Of a stretch of DNA of 64,000 nt, positions 11,660 to 60,655 are shown piece by piece; positions within the stretch are counted from its first letter, which is position 1; each line of letters starts with the position of its first letter. The stretch is from the NCBI RefSeq assembly GCF_000220985.1, contig NZ_AFRW01000122.1:1-64000 (forward strand), in the 5' to 3' direction. Under the pieces are notes generated by a model. That model did no database searches. It had not been told where the DNA came from and worked only from the letters and a program-made list of their open reading frames with translations. This stretch comes from Nesterenkonia sp. F (GTDB lineage: Bacteria > Actinomycetota > Actinomycetes > Actinomycetales > Micrococcaceae). A program made the position numbers and the translations under genes.

Positions 11660-12688
11660 GTGGAAATCATCGGAGTGATCGTTCTGGCCGTCCTGCTGGT
11701 GCTCGGCGTGCGCGTGCTCCTGGCTCGTCAGGGGCAGCGGCTCAACCGGCGGATCGAGGACGCGGTGACCCCGAAGAACGCCCGCACCGCCGCGCTGGCG
11801 CTGACCGACGAGCAGCACCGCGAGGTCTACCGCGCCATCGCCGCCGACGACGGACGCCGTGCGCTCGCGACCTTCAAGCAGGCGACCGGCGCCGGAGTGC
11901 GGGACTGCATCATCGCGGTGCAGGCGCTGCACCGCTACCCGCAGCGGACTCCTTCCGAGCTGCGGCTGGAGGATGAGCTCGCGGGCGTCTCCGACGGTCC
12001 CGAGGTCCGCGAGGAGCTCGTCGAGGACGCCATCGACGAGGTGCGCGACCAGCCCGAGGACCAGGCGCCCGACGGATCAGGCGACCCGTCCGACGACGCC
12101 GGGACGGACGCCGAGACCACCGGGACCCGGAACCGGCGCCGCGATCAGGACGACGGCGACCCGGTGGCCGAGGCTGACCCCTACACCGGGCGCATCCTCG
12201 GCCCCAACGAGGCCGGCATCCCCGACATCCCCGGCGGAGAGCGGGAGGATGACGACGCCGCCGCGCCGGACGAGGACCGGACCGAGGCGGCCGCCGAGTC
12301 CGGCGCCGAGACGGCTGATCGCCCGGAGGCAGAGGTCGACTCCGGCGCCGCCGACGGCGAGACCGCCGATGATCCGGAGGTCGAGGAGAAGGCCCGTCGG
12401 CTGCTGGCCGAGTCGGAGTTCTCCCTGGACGAGGAGCTGACCGTTCCGGAGGAGTGGACTCGGCAGGACGCCCAGGAGGAGCCGGCCGGATTCCACCTGG
12501 AGGTCCAGCGCGAGGGCGAGAAGATCACCCTCTCCCACGAGGACCTCGAGCCGTGGGTCCATGACCAGCTCTACGCGCTGCTGCGTGACGACCACGTCAC
12601 CGAGGCGGCCCAGCTGCTCTCCGAGCACTCGCCGCTGACCGAGGATGAGGCGCACAAGTTCCTGGTGGTCTTCAAGAACCAGGGCTGA
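11660..12688 (+). CDS. Single-pass membrane protein with repeated helical domain, function unknown
   Basis: This is a 342-aa protein I do not recognise by name. Residues about 2-22 form one transmembrane helix. A first helical module follows (EQHREVYRAIAADDGRRALA through GVRDCIIAVQALH). A long, very acidic linker rich in Asp, Glu, Ala and Pro (about 100-260) comes next. The C-terminal module (VHDQLYALLRDDHVTEAAQL then DEAHKFLVVFK) resembles the first, suggesting an internal repeat. The GTG start lies 6 nt after a TAGACT -10 box (11648-11653) and has no Shine-Dalgarno sequence, so the mRNA is probably leaderless. Confidence 0.7.
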   Translation: MEIIGVIVLAVLLVLGVRVLLARQGQRLNRRIEDAVTPKNARTAALALTDEQHREVYRAIAADDGRRALATFKQATGAGVRDCIIAVQALHRYPQRTPSELRLEDELAGVSDGPEVREELVEDAIDEVRDQPEDQAPDGSGDPSDDAGTDAETTGTRNRRRDQDDGDPVAEADPYTGRILGPNEAGIPDIPGGEREDDDAAAPDEDRTEAAAESGAETADRPEAEVDSGAADGETADDPEVEEKARRLLAESEFSLDEELTVPEEWTRQDAQEEPAGFHLEVQREGEKITLSHEDLEPWVHDQLYALLRDDHVTEAAQLLSEHSPLTEDEAHKFLVVFKNQG

Positions 12689-18254: not shown

Positions 18255-18297
18255 GTTGTCGGAACAACCTCACCCTGTCTAGGGTTGTTCCGACAAC
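18255..18297. promoter_or_regulatory. Double MarR operator over divergent marR/doxX promoters
   Basis: Two 14-bp palindromes of form GTTGT-NNNN-ACAAC lie 28 bp apart centre to centre. Each arm (18255-18269, 18283-18297) is also the exact inverse of the other over 15 bp. The doxX promoter, TTGTCG (18256-18261), 18 bp, TAGGGT (18280-18285), lies across both. A mirror promoter for marR, TTGTCG with an 18-bp spacer and TGAGGT, runs the other way. A bound dimer on each site would block both. Confidence 0.85.
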
Positions 18298-34378: not shown

Positions 34379-34448
34379 TCGAGCGGGGGATCTCTCGCCG
34401 TCCGGTGCCGGCCAGACCGGCCGGGACGGCGAGAGATCCCCCGCTCGA
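34379..34448. repeat. 25-bp perfect inverted repeat between gpmA and phoU
   Basis: Arms 34379-34403 and 34424-34448 are exact inverted copies. The 20-bp spacer itself holds an inner GCCGG/CCGGC stem. Outside the arms, GCACG and CGTGC extend the pairing after a small bulge. It sits between convergent genes, so it may be a two-way terminator, but it is far longer than the 8-17-bp hairpins found at other gene ends here and could be a repetitive palindromic element. Confidence 0.85.
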
Positions 34449-46545: not shown

Positions 46546-46603
46546 CGCCGCCGCGAACCTCTGGAGTTCCCCTCCCACGGGCTCCCTGTACGAGCTCCCC
46601 ACG

Positions 46604-46655
46604 ACGACGGCCCCTCGTCCGACCCGGCGGAACCGGGCGGGCGAGGGGCCGTCGT
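46604..46655. terminator. 14-bp hairpin between convergent small gene and katA
   Basis: ACGACGGCCCCTCG (46604-46617) pairs perfectly with 46642-46655, with an inner CCCGG/CCGGG stem. It lies 32 bp past the katA stop. Confidence 0.7.
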
Positions 46656-46686
46656 GGTGCGCGGCGGAGCCGCTGCGCGGGGAGGC

Positions 46687-52886: not shown

Positions 52887-53785
52887 TGGCCGAGCAGATC
52901 ACACAGACCGCGCAGGTGCTGGACGGCCGCGCCACGGCGAAGGCGCTGAAGGACGAACTGACCGAGCGGGTCGCCGCGCTCAAGGAGCGCGGCGTCGTCC
53001 CTGGACTCGGCACAGTTCTTGTCGGGGCCGACCCGGCGTCGCAGACGTACGTGGCCGGCAAGCATCGCGACTGCGCCGAAGTGGGCATCCACTCCATCCA
53101 GCGCGAGCTCGACGGCGACATCTCCGAGGAGGAGCTGCTCGCCGAGATCGCCACGCTCAACGCCGACGACGCCTGCACCGGCTACATCGTCCAGCTGCCG
53201 CTGCCGGGCCACATCGACACCCAGCGCGTGCTGGAGGCGATCGACCCGGACAAGGACGCGGACGGGCTGCACCCGACGAACCTCGGGCGCCTGGTGGCCT
53301 CGGTGCGCGGCGAGCTGCAGTCTCCGCCGCCGTGCACGCCCAAGGGGTGCCTGGACCTGCTCGAGCGCCACGGCCTCGACCTCGACGGCAAGCACGTGGT
53401 CGTCCTCGGCCGCGGGGTGACCATCGGCCGGCCGATCGGCCTGCTGCTCACCCGTCGCGAGGTCAACGCCACGGTCACGCTGTGCCACACCGGAACCCGC
53501 GACGTGGAGACGCATCTGGCCCAGGCCGACGTCGTCGTCGCCGCGGCCGGGGTGAAACACATGGTCGATCCGCAGGTGCTCAAGCCCGGGGTGATCGTGC
53601 TCGACGTCGGGGTGACCCGGGAGGAGGACCCGGAGACCGGCAAGGCGAAGATCTACGGCGACGTCGCCCCCGGCATCGAGGATGTGGCCTCCTGGTACTC
53701 GCCGAATCCCGGAGGAGTGGGCCCGATGACCCGCGCGGAGCTTCTGGCCAACGTGGTCGAGTCCGCCGAACGGCAGGCCGGCTGA
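52886..53785 (+). CDS. folD: Methylenetetrahydrofolate dehydrogenase/cyclohydrolase
   Basis: It converts 5,10-methylene-THF to 10-formyl-THF with NADP, supplying PurH. The 299-aa protein has [17 protein letters not shown] with catalytic Lys, [39 protein letters not shown] and [20 protein letters not shown] 52886 is five bases after GGAGGAG. The stop codon is immediately followed by the first base of the 102-bp repeat. Confidence 0.97.
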
Positions 53786-53887
53786 GGCGCTGAGCGCTCT
53801 CCGTCATCGAGTGGCGGCTCTCAGCGGCATCTGACATCGCGACACGGCGTGTCGGAGGGAGGACCGTGCTGGGAGCCGCCACCCGAT
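53786..53887. repeat. 102-bp structured repeat, copy A
   Basis: This copy is about 90% identical over 102 bp, without gaps, to 54961-55062. It starts GGCGCTGAGCGCTC and contains a 20-bp outer stem (53806-53825 with 53868-53887, near-perfect) and an inner perfect hairpin CGACAC-GGC-GTGTCG (53840-53854). Both stems are kept in the other copy. It starts directly after the folD stop codon. Confidence 0.9.
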
Positions 53888-54023
53888 CTATGCGGAGAGG
53901 GGCGCGCGGGGCGCCCGTTCGGCTCCTGCACATCCCGGGGGATGCGCACGACGACGCGCCGTGCCGTCCCCAGGGCCTGCTCGTCGCCCTCGCGCAGGGC
54001 GCGTCGTCGGGTCTGCTGGAGCC

Positions 54024-54968
54024 ATGGAGTTCCCGCTGCATGACCGACGCCGCCGACTGCCGTCCACTGTGCCGCCCGGCGGACATACCGCCCGAGACCT
54101 GCATGACGACGCCCTCGACGCCGGGGATATCCGGCATGCCGTCGGATACGGCACGCTCGCGCCCCTCGGCCGCGGCATCTACGCCGCCGGCGACGTCGAC
54201 GGGGCCGCGGCTCTGCTCGAGGTCCTCACCGACGAGCGGTGCGCGGCCAGCCATGGGACGGCGGCCGCGCTGCTCGGGCTCCCTGAGCACGAGCTCGGAC
54301 TCCCGGTCCACCTGACGACGCCGACGGCCGGCTTCCGCGTCCAGCGTCCCGAGGTCGTCCCGCACCGGTCGGAGGTTCCCGAGGACCAGATCGTCGAGCG
54401 TGCGGGGATCCGCTGCACGAGTCCGGCGCGGACCTGGGTGGATCTGGCGCAGACGCTGCCGCCGCTGGCCGCCCTGGTGCTGGCCGATCAGATCCTGCGG
54501 CCGCCGCGACGGGAGTTCGGCGAGGTCGGCGAGCCACTCGCAGGTCCCGAGGAGCTGCATGAGGTCGTGGCCCGGCGCCGGGGATCCCGCGGCATCCGAC
54601 GGATCCGGCATGTCGCCGAGCTGGCCCGGGTCGGGGCCGACTCGCCGCGGGAGACGGCGCTGCGATACGCCGTGCACCGAGCCGGACTTCCCGAGCCGCG
54701 GGTCAACCCGCGGATCGGTGACGAGCCGGGGTGGTCGTTCCAGCCGGACCTGGCCTTCGACGCCTTCCGCGTCGCCGTCCAGTATGAAGGGACTGCGGTC
54801 CACTCGAGGTCCGACCAGGTGCTCCGCGACGTCCGCCGGGCCGAGATCGCCGCGGCGCTGGGCTGGCTGGAGGTCCGCATCACCAAGGATCACAGCGTCG
54901 ACGCGTGGCGCCCGGCGATCCGCAAGATCGTCCAGGCGCTGCTCTCCCGCGGGTGGACCGGGCGCTGA
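54024..54968 (+). CDS. AbiEi-like winged helix plus PD-(D/E)XK/DUF559-like nuclease domain protein
   Basis: A 314-aa protein. The N-terminus resembles the AbiEi antitoxin-type helix-turn-helix (HTARDLHDDALDAGDIRHAV, then LAPLGRGIYAAGD). The middle is the linker region usual in such proteins. The C-terminus resembles DUF559/Vsr-like nucleases: PDLAFDAFRVAVQYEG with Asp242/246 and Glu255 as acidic residues, then RRAEIAAALGWLEVRITKD. The start is uncertain: ATG 54024 has a poorly spaced GGAG, and GTG 53961 is an alternative. It is bracketed by two copies of a structured repeat, and its last 8 bases are part of copy B. Substrate and partner unknown. Confidence 0.7.
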   Translation: MEFPLHDRRRRLPSTVPPGGHTARDLHDDALDAGDIRHAVGYGTLAPLGRGIYAAGDVDGAAALLEVLTDERCAASHGTAAALLGLPEHELGLPVHLTTPTAGFRVQRPEVVPHRSEVPEDQIVERAGIRCTSPARTWVDLAQTLPPLAALVLADQILRPPRREFGEVGEPLAGPEELHEVVARRRGSRGIRRIRHVAELARVGADSPRETALRYAVHRAGLPEPRVNPRIGDEPGWSFQPDLAFDAFRVAVQYEGTAVHSRSDQVLRDVRRAEIAAALGWLEVRITKDHSVDAWRPAIRKIVQALLSRGWTGR

Positions 54969-55062
54969 GCGCTCACCGTCATCGACTGGCGGCTCCCAGC
55001 GGCATCTGATCTCGCGACACGGCGTGTCGCAGGGTGGATCGTGCTGGGAGTCGCCACTCGAT
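54961..55062. repeat. 102-bp structured repeat, copy B
   Basis: This is the second copy, in the same orientation. Its outer stem is 54981-55000 with 55043-55062 (two mismatches), and its inner hairpin is 55015-55029 (identical). It supplies the stop codon (TGA 54966-54968) of the nuclease-like gene. A run of 11 G follows at 55068. Confidence 0.9.
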
Positions 55063-55067
55063 GCACT

Positions 55068-55078
55068 GGGGGGGGGGG
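55068..55078 (+). other. Run of 11 G
   Basis: This is the longest homopolymer seen in the window, 5 bp after repeat copy B. It is non-coding. Length may vary in cells or be misread in sequencing. Confidence 0.85.
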
Positions 55079-55121
55079 ATCTGCCCAGGGCGGAGAAGCT
55101 CCCCGGCGACCGCGTCGCCGC

Positions 55122-56918
55122 TCACCGCAGGAAGAGCCGGCGCATCCGCCACGTCGCCACGCTCAGCCCGACGACGACCATCACCAGGTAGTACCCGATG
55201 TGCACCAGGGTCATCGCATCGCCGGTGCGGAAGGCGATGTCGCGCATCAGCTCGACGCCGTGCCAGAGCGGCATCGCCTGCACCAGCGCCTGCACGCCGA
55301 CGGGGTAGACGTCGATGGGGAAGAGGGTGGCGGAGAAGAGGAACATCGGCATCAGCACCATCATCATCCAGTCCATCTGCTGGAACCGGGTGAAGAACGA
55401 GGTCACCGCCATGCCGACAGATGCGAAGCCCAGCGCGATGAACAGCGCGGTGACCCACATCAGCACCGCCGAGGCGCCGTCGATCAGCCCGGCGCCGACG
55501 AGCACCGCCAGGAATCCGACCGAGTAGATGGCCCCGCGGAAGAGCGCCAGGCCGATCTCGCCGAGGGCGACGTCGACCGGTCCGAGCGAGGTGGCCATCA
55601 TCGTGCGGAAGAGCTTGGTGATCTTCAGCTTGAAGAACACGTTCCAGGTGGAGTCGAAGATCGCTCCGTTCATCGCCGAGACGGCCAGCAGCGCCGGGGC
55701 GATGAAGGCCGCGTAGCTGATGGTGCCGTCCTGCCCGACGCCGGCCTGCTCGGCCTCGATGCCCGAGATCATCGGGCCGATGCCCAGCCCGAACGAGGTC
55801 AGGAAGAGGATCGGCTCGAGGAAGCCGGAGACGAACAGCACTCCGCGGTTGTTCCGGATCGCCGAGAGCCCGCGGGCGAAGACGGCCCGGATGTTGCCCG
55901 AGTACCAGCCGGCTCCCGCTCCCGTGCGGAACTGGGCGACCGGCGCCGGACCCACCGGCCCGTCGTCGTCGCGCAGTTCGGCGACTCGGGCCTCGCGGCG
56001 GGCGTCGGCCCGGGCGCCGGGGGTGCGGCCGCGCCACTCGGCGAGTCCCAGCCGGCGGGTGAACACGTGCACCGTCGCCCACCAGGCCAGCAGCGTGACC
56101 GCCGCCAGGAAGCCCAGATGCGTCGCGATCATCGCCGGCGAGGTGGGCTGGCCGAAGCTCAGCACCCGGCCGAGCTCGTTGGCGTGCCAGATCGGTGAGA
56201 TCCAGCCGATCGCCTGCAGCGGACCCGGCAGGTTCTCCAGCGGATAGAACGTCCCCGAGAACAGGAACAGCGGCATGATCACGAACCGCTGGATCAGCGC
56301 GCCGTGGCCCTTCTCCTCGCGCAGCGTGGAGATGTAGGCCATGATCGGCACGCCCAGCGCCAGCCCGCCGAGCGTGGCGGTGAGGACCTGCAGCCAGACC
56401 AGCGGCGACGTCGTCGCGCCGACGAGCACCAGCACCCCGGTGAAGACTGCGGAATGGAAGAGGAAGCGCACCGAGACCGCGAGGATGTGGCCGCCGGCGA
56501 TCTGTCCCGGCGTCAGCGGTGTGGCCTGGGCGCCATAGTAGAGTCGGCGCCAGGTGAAGCCCTCCAGCACGGGGAAGGCGAACTCGATGCCGGCGGTCAT
56601 CGCCACCGTGGCCGCGAGCACCCCGGGTCCGATGTACATCAGATACGACTCCGCGCCGAGATCCGCGACGGCGGAGGCGTCGCCCACCAGCAGACCCAGC
56701 CCCAGGCCCATGGCCAGGATGTACATCACCGGTTCGGCGACGGAGCTGGTCACGATGACCCCGGCGTAGGCGCGCATGCTGCGCAGCGTGCGCTCAGCCT
56801 GATGCAGGGCGCCGGTGCGGCGGGTGCGACGGGCCAGCCGATCCTTGTCAGCGGCCGGGGAGCCGGGCGCGGCCGCACCGGAGATCCGGTCGGAGTCCTC
56901 GCGGACGGTGTCAGTCAA
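55122..56918 (-). CDS. Fused double ABC-2 permease (DrrB/NodJ-like)
   Basis: The membrane part of an exporter, 598 aa, made of two tandem ABC-2 permeases (about 40-290 and 340-598), each with six helices. YLMYIGPGVLAATVAMTAGI in the first half corresponds to SYAAFIAPALLAVSAMNGAI in the second, and LFSGTFYPLENLP to LFSATLFPIDVYP. A hydrophilic linker joins them. One chain would replace the usual dimer. It overlaps the ATPase gene by 8 bp. Exported substrate unknown (drug, lipid or polysaccharide). Confidence 0.88.
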   Translation of the reverse strand: MTDTVREDSDRISGAAAPGSPAADKDRLARRTRRTGALHQAERTLRSMRAYAGVIVTSSVAEPVMYILAMGLGLGLLVGDASAVADLGAESYLMYIGPGVLAATVAMTAGIEFAFPVLEGFTWRRLYYGAQATPLTPGQIAGGHILAVSVRFLFHSAVFTGVLVLVGATTSPLVWLQVLTATLGGLALGVPIMAYISTLREEKGHGALIQRFVIMPLFLFSGTFYPLENLPGPLQAIGWISPIWHANELGRVLSFGQPTSPAMIATHLGFLAAVTLLAWWATVHVFTRRLGLAEWRGRTPGARADARREARVAELRDDDGPVGPAPVAQFRTGAGAGWYSGNIRAVFARGLSAIRNNRGVLFVSGFLEPILFLTSFGLGIGPMISGIEAEQAGVGQDGTISYAAFIAPALLAVSAMNGAIFDSTWNVFFKLKITKLFRTMMATSLGPVDVALGEIGLALFRGAIYSVGFLAVLVGAGLIDGASAVLMWVTALFIALGFASVGMAVTSFFTRFQQMDWMMMVLMPMFLFSATLFPIDVYPVGVQALVQAMPLWHGVELMRDIAFRTGDAMTLVHIGYYLVMVVVGLSVATWRMRRLFLR

Positions 56919-60610: not shown

Positions 60611-60655
60611 GGCGCGACGGCGCCCGGGCCGAGGCGGTCCGGGCGCCGTCGCGCC
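60611..60655 (+). terminator. 17-bp perfect hairpin after the ABC permease gene
   Basis: Arms 60611-60627 and 60639-60655 are exact inverted copies with an 11-nt loop, 25 bp after the stop. Confidence 0.75.

Follow-up and report, generated by a model that had tools for sequence, protein, structure and literature searches.

The AbiEi-EDxHD nuclease gene found downstream of folD in Nesterenkonia sp. F lies between two copies of a palindromic element, and related genes in many lineages appear to be bracketed likewise, each by its own palindrome type, an arrangement well supported by the sequences compared. On balance, the data probably reflect a REPIN-like palindrome population with a dedicated homing-type nuclease, which would drive conversion and recombination at the elements of that population. 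The overall picture looks like that of a self-spreading repeat system. The stretch analysed, hereafter the window, comprises 64,000 nucleotides (contig NZ_AFRW01000122.1, positions 1 to 64,000). Genomes compared are designated by G codes, G000 being the window genome, contigs by C codes and loci by L codes. An earlier, sequence-only reading of the window had described the repeats and the gene between them. Beyond that description, the arrangement is general, the palindrome differs from nuclease to nuclease, and other genes are bracketed too.

The two repeats (53786-53887 and 54961-55062) are 102 bp each, lie on the same strand and are identical at 92/102 positions, with 10 mismatches, in agreement with the roughly 90% identity and common orientation reported earlier. 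Among 80-mer direct repeats spaced by up to 3 kb in the window they rank first (72/80), the runner-up, located elsewhere, reaching 58/80. Compared with dinucleotide shuffles, copies A and B fold with z-scores of -4.0 and -5.2 on the + strand and of -3.5 and -4.1 on the - strand. The placement given earlier agrees with the coordinates: copy A begins directly 3' of the folD stop codon (53783-53785), and the start of copy B holds the final codons of the nuclease gene, whose stop occupies 54966-54968. The repeat and its structure are thus real, but the 102 bp had been taken for one element, and this had to be abandoned: in the alignment of the genomic copies, those outside the pair match the last ~83 bp alone (about 53805-53887 and 54980-55062). 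This dispersed element is a palindrome formed by CATCGAGTGGCGGCTCCCAGCGGCATCT, a centre with a small hairpin, and AGATGCCGCTGGGAGCCGCCACTCGATG. The ~19 bp preceding it in the repeat are an additional flank that copies A and B share with each other but not with the remaining copies. To note, a similar GCGCTGAGCGC stretch stands 3' of folD in the close relative G008, where the element is absent. The neighbouring genes are presumed to be folD and an ABC permease gene, and both have homologue matches in relatives. The coordinates of the features are collected in Table 1.

Table 1. Elements, nuclease gene and candidate active-site codons in the window
Feature	Position	Strand	Remark
Palindromic element, copy A	53805..53887	+	3' of folD, 137 bp before the nuclease start codon
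Palindromic element, copy B	54980..55062	+	11 bp past the nuclease stop
Extra shared flank before copy A	53786..53804	+	18/19 positions identical to 54961-54979; outside the dispersed element
Extra shared flank before copy B	54961..54979	+	contains the last nuclease codons and the stop
Nuclease gene (314 aa; AbiEi-like and EDxHD/Vsr-like nuclease domain)	54024..54968	+	
AbiEi-antitoxin-like part, residues 13-202	54060..54629	+	alignment to 6y8q, Z 11.1
EDxHD/Vsr-like nuclease domain, residues 207-311	54642..54956	+	alignment to 3r3p, Z 12.3
Codon of E210 (E of the EDxHD-like set)	54651..54653	+	
Codon of D242	54747..54749	+	
Codon of H260	54801..54803	+	
Codon of D269	54828..54830	+	

The best start of the nuclease gene is the ATG at 54024. 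The structure model of its product, made with 17 relatives, has a mean pLDDT of 90.3 and a pTM of 0.84. Residues ~13-202 match the AbiEi structure 6y8q (Foldseek E 2.6e-5) and, more loosely, Rv2827c. Since the PADLOC AbiEi models also match the window protein (E 3.8e-12), as they do 18/18 family members, the AbiEi-like domain recognised earlier holds. Foldseek matches the nuclease part to 3r3p_B, the catalytic domain of I-Bth0305I (E 4.1e-3), and the VIA Z-scores for residues ~205-312 are 12.3 with 3r3p (96 aligned residues, 2.9 Å), 11.4 with NGO0050 (3hrl) and 10.5 with Vsr (1cw0). The previous DUF559 label for this domain was rejected: Pfam points to an MTES_1575-like domain (19.5 bits for the window protein, under the cut-off of 38.2) and the fold is EDxHD/Vsr-like. 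Pfam finds MTES_1575 in 17/18 members and, besides this and the AbiEi families, a single DUF7889 and nothing else; the NCBIfam scan of the window protein gave no match. D242, H260 and D269 are present in 79/79 aligned relatives, an alignment from which L155 and L161 were dropped owing to internal stops. E210 is also found in 79/79, a count obtained by construction as this residue lies within the search peptide. The spacing of the four residues is that of the EDxHD set, and the modelled domain is predicted to be a homing-endonuclease-like EDxHD/Vsr fold with the E, D, H, D set. The protein would presumably cleave DNA. No AbiEii toxin gene stands beside the nuclease gene, whose neighbours are folD upstream and the convergent ABC-transporter permease gene downstream. 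An HUH/Y1 tyrosine transposase domain is absent from the Pfam scan of the 18 members, and the fold is AbiEi plus Vsr-like.

A homologue of the nuclease is present in 50/58 related genomes. All four full-length members found in the window genome (C17, C106, C22 and C77) lie between matched palindromes, whose sequence differs from one member to the next, and a fifth family match is a 62-residue fragment. In G003, G009 and G008, the nuclease occupies other sites, again between two palindrome copies of different arm sequence (CGAGTGGCCACGAATC in G003 and G009, CGAGTGGCCGCCGGTGACG in G008). Neither glyA, folD nor the ABC permease gene was seen adjoining the nuclease in the best 20 homologue loci. 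A wider survey covered 80 loci, mostly from Micrococcaceae and also from Jiangella, Actinomadura, Brachybacterium and one Sporosarcina, 75 of which have enough flank. The flanks compared for exact 15-mers, on either strand, were the 800 bp upstream and the 350 bp downstream of the gene. The two flanks share a 15-mer in 35/75 homologues versus 0/68 control genes (30 folD, 20 ccsB, 18 DUF4235), and palindromes sharing a 10-mer stand on both sides in 25/75 versus 0/68. The corresponding Fisher p values are 2e-12 and 1e-8, the loci being treated as independent, which they are not. Among 20 other ORFs from the same loci, none has a shared 15-mer and none a matched palindrome pair. Forty of the 75 homologues lack a common 15-mer and 33 lack a common 13-mer; some of those failing the test may have decayed, or may never have been bracketed. 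A palindrome finder (score 14) applied to 20 Nesterenkonia loci detected palindromes on both flanks in 7, on one flank in 9 and on neither in 4.

The 15-mer match occurs within a locus in 35/73 cases, whereas the upstream flank of one locus matches the downstream flank of another in 72/5256. Sorted by protein identity, the between-locus matches amount to 22/5064 below 50%, 4/58 at 50-60%, 10/40 at 60-70%, 12/34 at 70-80% and 24/60 at 80% or more. This climb with protein identity indicates that each palindrome type goes with its own protein. The palindromes might instead be regulatory, acting as operators for the AbiEi-like domain (autoregulation) or as gene-end terminators, with the nuclease domain serving another purpose. 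AbiEi antitoxins regulate their own operons, and the downstream element often lies at or just past the stop codon, as such a role would have it. Against it, copies stand at many unrelated sites, the stems ending at 53887 and 55062 are followed by no T run, and operators leave unexplained the pairs of sites with an element or with element-gene-element presented below. A regulatory role is thus unlikely.

The window-type element was searched in its own genome, a 2.81 Mb draft of 138 contigs that is 93% complete. Ten copies were found, one of which is cut by a contig start, together with four half copies at contig ends. Five window-type copies are located at contig ends (C61:4-31, C9:27545-27572, C4:2-41, C47:4904-4932 and C111:1-80), four of them halved, suggesting that the assembly breaks within palindromes. 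As the genes flanking the copies of C47 and C61 are adjacent in G003 and G009, one element probably joins these two contigs. The foot of the window type is CATCGAG and that of another type TTGAG; the GTAG (or CGTC) tag is absent from both. At two Arthrobacter loci, L137 and L139, the palindrome ends carry GTAG, a tag known from REP elements. No target-site duplication was seen among the aligned window-type copies, and the one site compared with an element-free relative is not clean. The window contains a second palindrome type at 34379-34448 (CATCGAGCGGGGGATCTCTCGCCGTCC...), ~70% like the C106 type, and other strong palindromes at 18255-18297, 46600-46659 and 60611-60655, which probably represent common terminators or repeats unrelated to the element.

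Genome-wide searches with six palindrome types revealed, for each of them, copies beyond the nuclease-flanking pair. The G012 type occurs in at least 9/58 genomes; its exact palindrome pattern yields 12/9/5/5 copies in four genomes and the reversed control pattern 0/0/0/0. The G003 type is restricted to G003 and G009, with 14 places in each, while the C106 type has 8 places in the window genome. The Sporosarcina type has 12 places in its own genome and none in three others. The G008 type occupies 4 places in G008, 4 in the window genome and none in 6 other genomes. Its copies in G000 (C40:19560, C86:2991, C4:11828 and C3:48157) form an orphan population, the cognate nuclease having not been found in that genome. 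Over the 202 kb of own-genome sequence covered, 3 further copies of the C77 type are present and no further copy of the C22 type.

Pairing was assessed in 32 elements of the G012 type (3/35 were dropped for their length), which were picked by their ends, a choice that in itself makes the five outermost pairs invariant. Their 21 arm pairs are kept at 92.6%, versus 39-51% when the arms are slid. The cells changed on both sides number 16, for a shuffle mean of 9.1 (2 of 500 shuffles), and the arm pairs with changes on both sides number 4, which is not above shuffles (mean 3.5). The paired arm changes and the strong predicted hairpin recall a structured RNA with a protein partner, one of the three interpretations given by the sequence-only reading. 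However, both strands of the repeat fold, the arms are also direct DNA palindromes, copies occur at many sites in either orientation, and an Rfam scan of 53000-56000 on both strands returned no family at threshold, with a single sub-threshold chance match. A structured RNA is therefore highly improbable.

The nuclease locus common to genomes with the G012 type retains the gene in G011, G012, G016, G018 and G027, while the G021 nuclease is apparently altered at its C-terminus. Only remnants of it are left in G022 (L251), G023 (L252) and G019 (L253), which have kept the dispersed copies and at least one of the two flanking elements; the nuclease is thus dispensable. This decay bears on the idea of a defence cassette, also put forward earlier, in which a solitary AbiEi-nuclease would act on foreign DNA, or as an addiction module, and the chromosomal palindromes would mark self or restrain the nuclease. 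The AbiEi models matching the whole set of 18 members do come from a defence library, but nothing positive was found past the AbiEi-like domain, and the lack of an adjoining AbiEii gene adds to the decay in making a defence function very unlikely. The plasmid collection gave 6 records with partial matches (28-43% identity) and the phage collection 1 record, so that the collections searched do not point to carriage by plasmids or phages.

Comparison of equivalent sites between genomes illustrates the behavior of the nuclease unit. Downstream of the gene that we take to be DUF4235-like, G008 has element-nuclease-element versus one element of the same type (94%) in G000, and the left and right homologies overlap within the element only. 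A lone element of another type is found there in G009, and at the score used no palindrome is detected in 15/18 genomes. The lone G000 element may be a loss scar instead of the ancestral state; as the sequences stand, gain and loss seem equally possible. At the folD site, where the window carries element-nuclease-element, both G003 and G009 show a single element, of their own type, 11-20 bp past folD, and G008 has no element and a different gene instead of the nuclease unit. The G008 gene (L254 3512-4835), starting MAISDFPRHP... and lying between folD and the ABC-transporter genes, is presumably deaminase-like. Vertical inheritance of the nuclease unit at folD was rejected, the unit being absent there in G008. 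At a third site, presumably ccsB-like, the nuclease stands between two elements in G003 and G009; G002 has a single element, of another type, G020 and G021 weak palindromes, and G000 and G008 none. Three further sites (contig ends C61/C47; C3; C4) carry different types in G000 and G003 between the same flanking genes, two of them also in G009. Positions therefore persist while the type varies. Of the earlier interpretations, the transposase-free mobile or recombinogenic unit is the one that stands: the repeat is dispersed and not local only, the unit is missing from folD in G008 and present at other loci in relatives, so that empty sites exist, and G000 and G008 provide a pair of sites with the element alone and with the bracketed nuclease.

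Genes other than the nuclease also reside between elements. At one site, a lone element in G012 and G027 corresponds to three unrelated cargos, each between two elements, in G018 (an alcohol dehydrogenase), G021 (a 183-aa protein) and G011 (a 707-aa secreted-type protein). Near folD, G012 has element-TfoX_N gene-element versus a single element in G018 and G021; G011 and G016 also have one element there, with the flank rearranged. A third site harbors element-TetR/MDMPI genes-element in G012 versus one element in G021, G027 and G023. As most relatives carry a lone element, cargo gain is the simpler reading at the TfoX_N and TetR/MDMPI sites. An APH-family phosphotransferase gene lies between two elements in G003 (L257 8876-9835) and G009 (L259 3462-4421). 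Lone elements do not reliably resemble the outer halves of the filled pair more than the inner ones: they do so in 7/9 comparisons, which are not independent, with 1 tie and 1 lower, and these sequences lean weakly toward a crossover inside the element. Tandem repeats of ~18-25 bp, composed of the element right end and flank, occur beside single elements (L262 about 12245-12290; L279 upstream of 2875) and are perhaps footprints of repeated breakage and repair.

An element-gene-element arrangement can also come from ordinary recombination between repeats. The elements might accordingly be passive REP-like repeats spread by something else, with RecA-type recombination bracketing genes and the nuclease uninvolved, its position being historical. 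The bracketing of other genes, the survival of elements in genomes with nuclease remnants and the four orphan G008-type copies of the window genome all fit such passive repeats. They would leave unexplained the matched flanks (35/75 versus 0/68), the palindrome type following the protein and the conservation of the active-site residues, and we regard them as unlikely.

In the mechanism favored here, that of a nuclease dedicated to its palindromes, the AbiEi-type domain would recognise the element arms, and the EDxHD domain would nick or cut at the palindrome, either as a duplex or as an extruded hairpin. When the break is repaired from another element copy, the copies would become homogeneous and new arm sequences would spread. 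Such repair might sometimes deposit at the element site a gene together with a second element, the nuclease gene itself being one such cargo, gained within the element. More tentatively, and with less likelihood than the dedicated nuclease itself, the whole may constitute a gene-exchange platform: a homing-type AbiEi-EDxHD nuclease would homogenise docking palindromes genome-wide, and these would gain and drop single-gene cassettes, including the nuclease's own gene. Several such systems, told apart by their arms, would coexist per genome in Actinomycetota and at least one Bacillota member.

Several known systems share part of these features. Integron gene cassettes are single genes bounded by palindromic sites, with varied cargos at one site, which is also the case here; unlike them, the present sites are genome-wide, the unit has no tyrosine integrase, and palindromes stand on both sides of each cargo. 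MITEs are short dispersed palindromes like the present elements, from which they seem to differ in that no target-site duplication was seen at the copies aligned here and no DDE transposase belongs to the unit. The closest analogue is the REPtron, an association of REP/REPIN palindromes with a RAYT (TnpA-REP). In the excerpts available of PMC3116915, PMC3733652 and PMC8266576, the palindromes of REPtrons are dispersed and mostly intergenic, a single-copy endonuclease gene is bracketed by its own type, several types exist per genome, and enzyme and palindrome co-diverge. As far as these excerpts go, the present system likewise has dispersed, mostly intergenic palindromes, a single-copy endonuclease gene flanked by palindromes of its own type, more than one type within a genome and co-divergence of enzyme and palindrome. 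It differs by its AbiEi and EDxHD/Vsr enzyme, that of REPtrons being an HUH Y1, by its single long hairpin of ~70-83 bp without a GTAG foot, and by other genes found as element-gene-element. With the HUH transposase and, in the window type, the GTAG foot missing, the system was not placed in REP/RAYT. Membership of that family proper would account for the same anatomy, the dispersed palindromes and the bracketing by a matched type, but it is refuted for the protein, given its AbiEi plus EDxHD/Vsr fold, and the foot is CATCGAG, leaving it next to no likelihood.

I-Bth0305I, an EDxHD homing endonuclease, forms a dimer on a target nearly 60 bp long according to the portion consulted of PMC3943268. 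The window protein resembles it in the fold of the catalytic domain and the E, D, H, D set, and the ~60-bp target is comparable to the ~70-83 bp palindrome. Like a homing endonuclease gene, the nuclease gene appears to be located in its presumed target, with a lone target at the orthologous site (G008 vs G000, DUF4235 site). Unlike I-Bth0305I as described in that portion, it comes with no intron or intein, a target dispersed over the genome, two complete copies flanking the gene and an AbiEi-like DNA-binding part. Compared with the AbiE type IV toxin-antitoxin (PDB 6y8q; PMC3985639, in excerpt), the N-terminal two thirds of the protein are AbiEi-like, but there is no AbiEii partner gene and a nuclease domain is fused. 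No description of an AbiEi/EDxHD-palindrome pairing was found in the open-licence PMC literature, represented mostly by titles and the start of abstracts. The enzyme class and the cargo behavior set the system apart from the REPtron; the anatomy alone would make it a variant.

Among bacterial palindrome populations, the known case with a dedicated enzyme is REP/RAYT, and the excerpts available of the REP/RAYT literature still call the spread of such repeats unresolved. If the mechanism proposed here is true, it would represent a second, non-homologous case, a homing-type nuclease replacing the HUH transposase, and such partnerships would have arisen more than once. It would also provide a function for the widespread solitary AbiEi-nuclease genes and a transposase-free route of single-gene gain. 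The specificity of each enzyme for its palindrome is open to direct test, as one genome holds four enzymes and four palindrome types.
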